64,000 nucleotides of DNA from Ridgeia piscesae. Its lineage: Eukaryota; Annelida; Polychaeta; Sabellida; Siboglinidae. Shown in pieces: positions 8,180 to 11,100 of the stretch. The position numbers were made by a program, and so were the translations under genes. The stretch lies in assembly GCA_025642075.2 (NCBI GenBank), contig JAODUO010000184.1:297501-361500 (forward strand). The letters run 5' to 3'. Under the pieces are notes generated by a model. It was not told where the DNA came from. It saw nothing but the letters and a program-made list of their open reading frames with translations, and searched no databases. Numbering within the stretch: the first letter of the stretch is position 1; every line of letters begins with the position of its first letter.

Positions 8180-11100
8180 CTGCAACACCAAACAGTCAAA
8201 TAAAGTCAAAATTATCTGTCAACACAGCTACATGAGTACAAAACAGGGTAGACATGTGCACAGCTTCATGGCTGTTTTAAGACATTATAATTTATAACAG
8301 GCAAAATATCAAAACGTACATCTCACCACAAACCATACACAGGCAGCCGTACCTTCGTCAATTTAAGATCTAGAGCTCAGGACATTCCCTAAAATCTACG
8401 ATTTCATTTCCACTCTGCTAATGATTTGTTTACGTTCCGTTCCTTATTCCTTGTATACTTCTTGTCCTTTAGCAATTAACACAATTATTAGTTGCTACAG
8501 ACAGATTTCTATTACAAACAGGACTTTGTATTGGCACAGACAGATAAAGCATTGAAACAACCATAATTTCTGAAGCAGTACACAGATACACAACCACTCA
8601 ATACGAAATTGTTAGAGATTTGCATCGTACCTTGCCAGCTGCAGCAAGCGCCGCCTGCTGGGCTAGTTCTGCGGCAGACTGGCCGTGACCTCGTCCGGGC
8701 AGCTCTTCCGTCTTCTCTTCTTCTCGTCGCTTCAGACACGCAGCCTTTGGGTTTAGATTACGTTCTGAAAAACACAGATTGCTGTCAGAAACTGATCACT
8801 GCATGGTGCGTCTATCCCTTGTCCCGGGGACAGCATTCGTGATAAACACACAATAAAACTACTGCTTATAATCAACACTGGTTATACAACGCCACAACAT
8901 TGCGTACAACGCAATTTTTGTGGCAATTCTTGTCTTTATATCGTAATAGTGCAGAAAGTAAACTAAGCGAAATAAGCAAACGTCATTCTGCGCTACAAAT
9001 CTAATTCAAATGTGATTAGCAAAAATATTTGCTTTATTTTGTGTTTTATACATTTCAATACAAAAAGTTGCACAATAGCCGTCTTATTTTATATACAGCT
9101 GAACATAAACTTTCACTGTAAAGCAAATAAAGAAAATTTATGCATAGAATATACAACCAAATTGATCAGCACTAACTGAATACAGAATTACTTGTAATAT
9201 GGCAAAAATGCAAAGTGCGACTGATGAATGGAAAATGGAAAGCATCATGCCTCAGTAACTGTAGGCCACAGTTACTGACGCTACGTAGCAGGACTGTATG
9301 CTGCTTCACTGCATGCACACAGCAACAGTTAGTGGAAGCAGACGGGACAGAGCCACTGTCAGTTTACTCTCCTCTTGTAACTAACAACTGTTGGACGCAA
9401 TCCAGAGTGCGAAGTCTGGGAAACAAGTTTCACATTACAGTCACCTTGTCTGCTTGTTGGGTGGAAACAGCCTTTAATTCCACAGATATGGCAATTTCTC
9501 TGTAACAACAGTTGTTTTAAAATGTGGCCGGTTAACGTTATGTAAAGCAAAGCTTAGTGGAAGTTAGGTGGAACATTGAAACTGCTTACATGAAGTCTGT
9601 TTTCTTATATGGGGAATGTGACCATAGTGAGAAGTATTATATATTCAATGCAGAGAGTTGTTTTTAAAGAAAGGGAGTTCTTAGGTTCACTTATGTCTAT
9701 ACCCTCTCAACACCCAACCTGTCATGCATCGGTGACAACAATGTGACACGGGCGAGAATGAAGAATGTCGTGACGCGATGCGACGCGACGCCACGCCCGG
9801 CGAGACGACGACGATGGCCTACCTCTGACCTGCTGCTCAAGGTTCGTGATTATGTTAACGGCTTGCTGCAGGATTGTTAGTTTAGTCTGAGGCTTCTCCG
9901 CCTCGAGGTGGATGGAGCACATGCGACCAAGCTCTTTGAACGCCTCATTTATATCTCTAACGCGCACCCTGTGAGGCAGAAGAAACATCACGCATGTAGT
10001 GAGAGGGCGACGCAGAGTCCACACGTGCATTCATGCTCATGCGCCCCGTCACACGCCTTCACCACCCACATTTCACCTTAAAGAAATTCCACTGATCCTT
10101 CGGTCCACAGGACTGAAACCGGATCACGGCTGAGTTTGTATAAAACAATTTCAAAAGGAATTCAATGTAATTTTCGTGTTGACGATTTTCAAGTTGTTTT
10201 CTTTCACAAACAAGTCAGATCCATGTTTTATGAATCAGAGATGTTTAGCAAACTGAAATTGTATATTTTCAAATAAACTGTGGAGAGTGTAATAAAAGTT
10301 TTTGCAAGGTTGGAAATCAGGAATATCGCATGAAATGCTAAGATACTTCATCTCGAGGCTTCTCATGATGACGGTGGCGCCATCTGTTGGTGGTGCCATC
10401 GATCCGCAAGCTAGGGGGTAAAAAACATGCACGGGGAGGGCGGACAAACGGCATGCACGAAGCGACATGCTCAGCATAGCGTGGTTCTCATGACGACGGT
10501 TGTCACGGCGACGGTTACCTCGGACCTGCTGCTCTAGCGATGTGATGACCGTTACGGCCTGCTGCAGGACCATCAGCTTGGTCAGTGGCTGGCCGTTGGC
10601 CATGTGAATGGACACCATATGGCCAAGCTCTTTGAAAGCCTCATTAATGTCACGCACCCTTAATCTGCCAGGCACGACCAACAGGCACAAGTAATACACA
10701 GTGCGCAGACCTGCTATCAGTACACCACAACAGATACAAGGAAACATACAGCTCAAAGACATGGCATCACAACAGTATCAAATAAATACACTCTGTGGGA
10801 ATAATGCTGTTAACGAGTACACAAGACAAAATAATTTGTTTGGAAGTATCATGACAATAAACAGGTTGTACACCAATAGTAACTTTACCCACCTACTGTA
10901 TAAGGACCAAACATTGTTATTGTTTCACTCCAGGTCTGTAAATCAGAACTTTAACAACAACAAAATGATGACACGGTTAAAAGAATAGAACTTTATCAAA
11001 GTTGTGATAAGGTCAACACGCCACTGTTTCATAGATGACTGTTTTCATTGATCATGACAGCCACAACAATAAAACAAAGGAACTTGCATTTGTACAATCA

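Follow-up and report, generated by a model that had tools for sequence, protein, structure and literature searches.

A probable either-or pair of helix-loop-helix exons in a tubeworm E-protein gene, likely independent of E12/E47

Does the E-protein gene of a deep-sea tubeworm hold two alternative dimerisation segments and, if it does, is the choice between them the one that vertebrates make between E12 and E47, or one of separate origin? As E-proteins serve proneural and myogenic bHLH factors as general partners, a splice switch in the pairing segment of an E-protein would affect an entire network in one step. The DNA considered here, 'the window', is the whole stretch of 64,000 nt from Ridgeia piscesae that was analysed, and the question arises from two neighbouring exons on its minus strand, here called A and B (Table 1). 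In the reading that we hold to be quite probable, the tubeworm E-protein has a canonical helix-loop-helix exon, B, and a likely derived one, A, of which each mRNA takes one, and the two go back to an old duplication that is likely independent of the one behind E12 and E47.

The exon pair and its gene

How well formed is the pair? The sequence-only reading of this DNA had two exons of 146 nt, 550 nt apart, of the same phases and with the same flanks, and in its coordinates it is exact. All five introns that can be formed around A and B have GT..AG ends, phase and flanking exons are common to the two, and the frame stays open when either A or B alone is placed between 11192 (upstream) and 8764 (downstream). 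That each exon encodes a full helix 1-loop-helix 2 also stands, with the correction that positions 1-10 of the basic region are supplied by the shared upstream exon. Each exon scores as a Pfam HLH (E 1.3e-12 for A and 5.8e-12 for B), and an exon pair with such a domain in each is far above chance.

Table 1. Features of the E-protein gene in the window, in the order of transcription
Feature	Coordinates	Strand	Remarks
Constitutive E-protein exon	26467-26365	minus	
Constitutive E-protein exon	23201-23053	minus	...HHARETM
Constitutive E-protein exon	22554-22327	minus	
Constitutive E-protein exon	17630-17552	minus	
Constitutive E-protein exon	16427-16354	minus	
Second copy of the 14403-14221 segment	15904-15845	minus	60 nt; in the L. 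satsuma model, absent from the Ridgeia model
Exon with conserved segment	14403-14221	minus	183 nt
Constitutive E-protein exon	13991-13916	minus	
Constitutive E-protein exon	12483-12294	minus	...KASSKKSD
Shared upstream exon	11275-11192	minus	GTAAGT donor; ends NNARER; basic-region positions 1-10; open frame with A or B
Exon A	10664-10519	minus	146 nt; helix 1-loop-helix 2; 49/49 identical in L. satsuma
Intron separating A from B	10518-9969	minus	550 nt, GT..AG
Exon B	9968-9823	minus	146 nt; canonical E-protein helix-loop-helix; 48/48 identical in L. satsuma
Shared downstream exon	8764-8631	minus	joined alike in the L. satsuma and Ridgeia models
Terminal exon, predicted end of coding sequence	8179-8168	minus	VWL, then stop; the L. 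satsuma model ends ...GKVWL

What would become of a transcript that took both exons, or neither? Joint use or joint skipping had been said to break the frame, and so it does: with A and B in one transcript the product ends ...QVRGCALEI, where exon B reaches a stop after about 20 nt, and with neither it ends ...RERT at a stop a few bases into the exon that begins at 8764. Since the stop of either failed form is followed, at a distance of more than 100 nt, by at least one junction (8631 to 8179), such shifted and prematurely ended messages are predicted to be cleared by nonsense-mediated decay. As the frame is kept by only one exon at a time, every working mRNA is predicted to have exactly one of the two, and the gene to yield two distinct proteins; the intron between them would seem to exceed the length at which simple steric exclusion could act. 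The pair is real and well formed, either-or by its frame, and likely functional.

Counts of PTB, G-run and UGCAUG motifs, and duplex energies between the three introns, gave no clear signal when set against shuffles. The nominal values, P 0.037 for TTCT/CTCTCT in the downstream intron, P 0.050 for UGCAUG in the A-B intron, and a pairing of the upstream with the A-B intron that was reached by one of 20 shuffles, are given no weight because 20 motif and three pairing tests were involved. An inverted repeat (I6) links 9804-9819 with 11250-11265 at 81%, and Rfam and tRNA scans of the 64,000-nt window found nothing.

The claim that the gene encodes an E-protein is borne out by the Pfam HLH matches and by the nearest solved structures to the A and B bHLH, which are chains of E2-alpha and TCF4; its description as 'protostome-like' agrees with its source, a siboglinid annelid. 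A conserved tail after the bHLH and, upstream, an LDDAIHVLR segment, which we take to be features of E-proteins, are both present in the Ridgeia gene. Isoform A as reconstructed, with exons from 26467 on, agrees with the Ridgeia piscesae model P0159 at 483 of 485 aligned residues, both mismatches being where P0159 reads into the intron after 8631. That model has A and is without B, and in model P0121 of Lamellibrachia satsuma A is followed by a read-through stretch of intron and then by B. According to passages of PMC9921365, genes in the Ridgeia genome were predicted ab initio, by homology and from RNA, with a library made from muscle.

Elsewhere in the gene, the shared upstream exon has two acceptors 18 nt apart, 11275, which fits L. 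satsuma P0121, and 11293, which is that of Ridgeia P0159 and adds SHLCDS. An open frame within 29647-30144 (minus strand) encodes the residues with which the Ridgeia and Lamellibrachia models begin and is probably an alternative first exon. There is also a second tandem exon duplication, 15904-15845 and 14403-14221, both of phase 0, where either copy or both keep the frame open, so that these two are not frame-exclusive. The L. satsuma model contains both copies; a Pinctada model has a comparable doubling, and in Owenia P0227 the first copy is divergent. Over about 12484-13250 (minus strand), up to the acceptor of exon 12483-12294, there is a long array of short GACTGACTGTGCCATGCT-like repeats.

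Two-core models and the tree of cores

Where else do two such cores stand in one predicted protein? Three protein searches, with the best 120 taken from each of 927, 5504 and 5730 matches, gave 320 distinct proteins with 359 cores. Two recognisable cores are present in 41 models among the 320, 31 of them vertebrate and 10 protostome. All 31 vertebrate models have two basic regions, each core having its own upstream segment; the cores differ in 30 and are identical in one (P0123, turbot), which is no E12/E47 case. One basic region is present in nine of the ten protostome models and none was recognised in the tenth, Macrostomum P0157; the sources are one annelid, four flatworm (Macrostomum twice, Taenia and Echinococcus), two oyster and three crustacean. 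A upstream with B downstream is found in L. satsuma, in two Macrostomum models, in Taenia and in Echinococcus, and a Cichlidogyrus model has A and then a B that is cut short, all of this co-occurrence outside the tubeworm window being in automated gene models. In Macrostomum P0122 and in Echinococcus the second core comes directly after the first, consistent with a border at RER, and in Taenia, as in L. satsuma, read-through sequence separates the two. The oyster models P0124 (Magallana) and P0125 (Pinctada) have two different A-type cores in tandem, which suggests a further duplication of the A exon in oysters.

A second bHLH exon, which the sequence-only reading had proposed to seek in other animals, was found in predicted proteins of an annelid, flatworms, oysters and crustaceans, and among the matches listed it was found neither in rotifers nor in insects, no insect model having a two-core Daughterless. 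Of one type only are the mollusc models counted, 29 of 29 with the QPLTK core and with no B-type core among the matches listed, and the rotifer models counted, five of five without QPLTK. The pair is therefore not demonstrated in every phylum of the A clade, which is compatible both with the loss of one copy and with isoforms concealed by clustering at 90%.

The tree was made under LG+G4 from 56 cores and 49 sites, 54 of the cores being hand-picked from the 359 and two coming from the window, with the A and B labels assigned by motif. The set has no duplicates and omits the L. satsuma pair (equal to that of the window), the majority of the vertebrates, a large number of molluscs and insects, the upstream core of Hyalella, which is divergent, and the insertion-bearing Macrostomum P0157 and Dracunculus P0101. 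Ends were trimmed where they left the core (Homarus_U, Taenia_B, Echinococcus_A, Cichlidogyrus_A, Macrostomum_B), and the read-in first residue was kept in Taenia_B, Echinococcus_B and Hyalella_D. The 23 A-type cores, from annelids (the window, Dimorphilus, Owenia), molluscs, a nemertean and flatworms, split from all others with a branch support of 98.4/100, and the mutual relations of the B, arthropod and vertebrate types are weakly supported. Of the constrained topologies, a clade of spiralian A and B has the best likelihood (AU 0.745), and vertebrate E12+E47+TCF4/12 (0.54) and arthropod upstream+downstream (0.49) clades are also accommodated. A clade of flatworm A and B has an AU of 0.029, and a clade of annelid A and B one of 0.0007, by which a recent annelid-only duplication is rejected. 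Because the A type is common to annelids, molluscs, a nemertean and flatworms, with B in the state of other E-proteins, the duplication likely predates those phyla, and an origin of the two before annelids and flatworms split is likely. Since the same two copies are in predicted flatworm genes, the switch is likely very old and likely separate from human E12/E47.

Could A and B instead be the true homologues of the E12 and E47 exons, by one duplication in the bilaterian ancestor and later losses in many lineages? The two pairs have the same place in the protein and the same logic of order, crustacean models likewise have a pair at the RER border, and neither A with E12 (AU 0.29) nor A with E47 (0.265) is rejected, the value for A with the arthropod downstream type being 0.274. 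Such homology is unlikely, however, as each vertebrate copy brings a whole basic region, which is absent from the protostome unit, A with the arthropod upstream type is rejected (0.044), and E12, E47, TCF4 and TCF12 group together in the tree, though weakly; the full split, with A, E12 and arthropod upstream on one side and B, E47 and arthropod downstream on the other, is marginally rejected (0.047).

Or might one of the two be a relic in Ridgeia, rarely or never spliced in? The public Ridgeia model has A only, and the models of many relatives have one type only, but A and B both keep their open frames, splice ends and phase, and the protein sequence of both is that of L. satsuma (0/49 and 0/48 changes), which differs from the window at 25 of 436 aligned residues outside exon A. 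At that outside rate the chance of zero changes is 0.003 for the 97 residues and 0.059 for the 48 of B alone; helix-loop-helix regions evolve slowly in general, so this identity serves as supporting evidence only. Compared with each other, A and B share 35 of their 49 amino acids and 99 of 147 nt, the differences falling 11/9/28 on the three codon positions, with an NG86 dN of 0.24 against a dS, itself saturated, of 2.54. A relic is on these grounds decidedly unlikely. A separate rise of A and B in annelids and in flatworms, with likeness by convergence, we find the hardest to believe, for though the alignment is short (49 sites), sisterhood of window_A and window_B is not rejected (AU 0.076) and tandem exon duplication, according to passages of PMC9741552, recurs independently in orthologous genes, it has against it the support for the A clade, the low values for annelid-only and flatworm-only clades, and the M32 and Q26/L28 that the two groups have in common.

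What the choice of exon may alter

If the pair is an old one of which each mRNA takes a single member, in what do its members differ? Core position 26 is Q in all 23 A-type cores of the 56-core sample and K or R in all 33 others, and position 28 is L in all 23, with Q in 32 of the others and V in one. A recount was made over the distinct cores of all fetched proteins, 36 of A type (QPLTK being the definition) and 131 other cores in register, five distinct cores out of register being left uncounted. It gave Q at 26 in 36 of 36 A-type cores against K or R in 130 of 131 others, and at 28 Q in 118 of the 131 and L in none, counts that are of sequences and not of independent events, and that are circular in so far as 26 and 28 belong to the definition of the A class. 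Position 32 does not belong to it, and there M is found in 23/23 A-type and 0/33 other cores of the sample, and in 36/36 and 2/131 in the recount. Position 16 is non-basic in the 23 and basic in the 33 of the sample; in the recount it is non-basic in all 36 but also in 12 of the 131 others, fish TCF4/TCF12-like cores included, so that 26, 28 and 32 are special to A and 16 is not. The A-like copy of Macrostomum P0157, with K16 and A32, goes counter to the pattern. By these comparisons of sequence A is likely the derived type, having lost the Lys/Arg of the loop.

Passages of PMC8431614 have the bases read by positions 1, 2, 5, 6, 8, 9, 12 and 13, and phosphate touched by positions 47-51. In the numbering of those passages, as mapped here, the shared exon supplies positions 1-10, A and B agree in having R12 and V13, and core position 28 aligns at about position 48. 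The base-reading residues being thus shared or identical, we infer that the choice of exon retunes contacts within the dimer or with the DNA backbone and not the choice of E-box. Helix 1, loop and helix 2 would be altered and the reading of the E-box left as it was, and what might change with them is the choice of partner, the strength of the homodimer and the grip on the DNA backbone.

If the pair does date to the annelid-flatworm split, a developmental regulator would have had a splice switch at the protein level for a long time, a natural experiment beside E12/E47 with the same hub and a different unit swapped. As an automated model may retain a single copy (Ridgeia) or run the two together (Lamellibrachia, Taenia), the published E-proteins of these phyla may be incomplete or chimeric.

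Beside E12/E47 and other exclusive exons

How near, then, is the tubeworm arrangement to the known one? According to passages of PMC12585103, exons 18a and 18b of TCF3 (E2A) are tandem homologous bHLH exons, used one at a time, that give E12 and E47, and PTBP1 and hnRNPH1 are involved in the choice; PMC5740500 has TCF3 among the human genes with three clusters of exclusive exons. (E12/E47 are named as a family in PMC1828162 and PMC5875013, from both of which the splicing words searched for are absent.) Common to both cases, so far as those passages describe TCF3, is an E-protein gene in which the same flanking exons enclose a tandem pair of homologous bHLH exons. The difference is that a vertebrate copy carries its own basic region, whereas the annelid exons start after the RER in a basic region that is shared, and, in the cores sampled, both vertebrate types have K26 and Q28 where annelid A has Q26 and L28. 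The E2-alpha PDB chains of ERLRV and ERVRV forms differ upstream of the basic region as well and, taken with the counts of basic regions, they make the vertebrate alternative unit larger than the annelid one.

That human TCF3 has the same kind of exon pair, as the sequence-only reading had it, is not supported, given an own basic region in 31 of 31 vertebrate models: homology in the form first proposed is rejected on those counts, the joint tree test being marginal (AU 0.047). A parallel that had been drawn between first residues, ERLRV upstream and ERVRV downstream in both, looks coincidental, as among the 23 A-type exons sampled 10 open with V, nine with L and four with I; rotifer B-type exons start with L. 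Because they begin inside the basic region, the annelid exons are not the E12/E47 pair and are likely a convergent one. The tubeworm switch would work like that of vertebrates, with a different unit swapped and a likely independent origin.

The crustacean Daughterless models (Homarus P0158, Amphibalanus P0241 and Hyalella P0242) likewise have one basic region and then two cores with a border at RER. They differ in that the downstream core is of the insect Daughterless type (RIRIRDINEALK..NMAVEVI) and that there is no QPLTKLM exon. Upstream and downstream crustacean cores group with Trichoplax in the tree, weakly, and the crustacean pair is probably, though not securely, an independent case. 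It is possible, and we offer it tentatively, that spiralians have in A, with its loop Lys/Arg lost, an ancient second dimerisation module that takes the place of the canonical one while the reader of the E-box stays as it is, that splice choice at this hub would rewire the entire network of proneural and myogenic partners, and that either-or bHLH exons arose at least three times, in spiralians, in crustaceans and, with a larger unit, in vertebrates.

The sequence-only reading knew of no such arrangement described outside vertebrates. No paper on a protostome E-protein exon pair was found among the matches listed, an absence that is weak evidence, but two-copy models, unremarked, are public for an annelid, flatworms, oysters and crustaceans. 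With mutually exclusive exons in general, as passages of PMC5740500 and PMC9741552 present them, the tubeworm pair shares homologous neighbours of the same phase that give alternative forms of one segment, an arrangement that recurs; those passages cover human, fly and nematode genes and contain no spiralian E-protein pair. Known already is a switch of the E12/E47 type in vertebrates; what appears to be new is a protostome pair of different make, in which the unit swapped is smaller.
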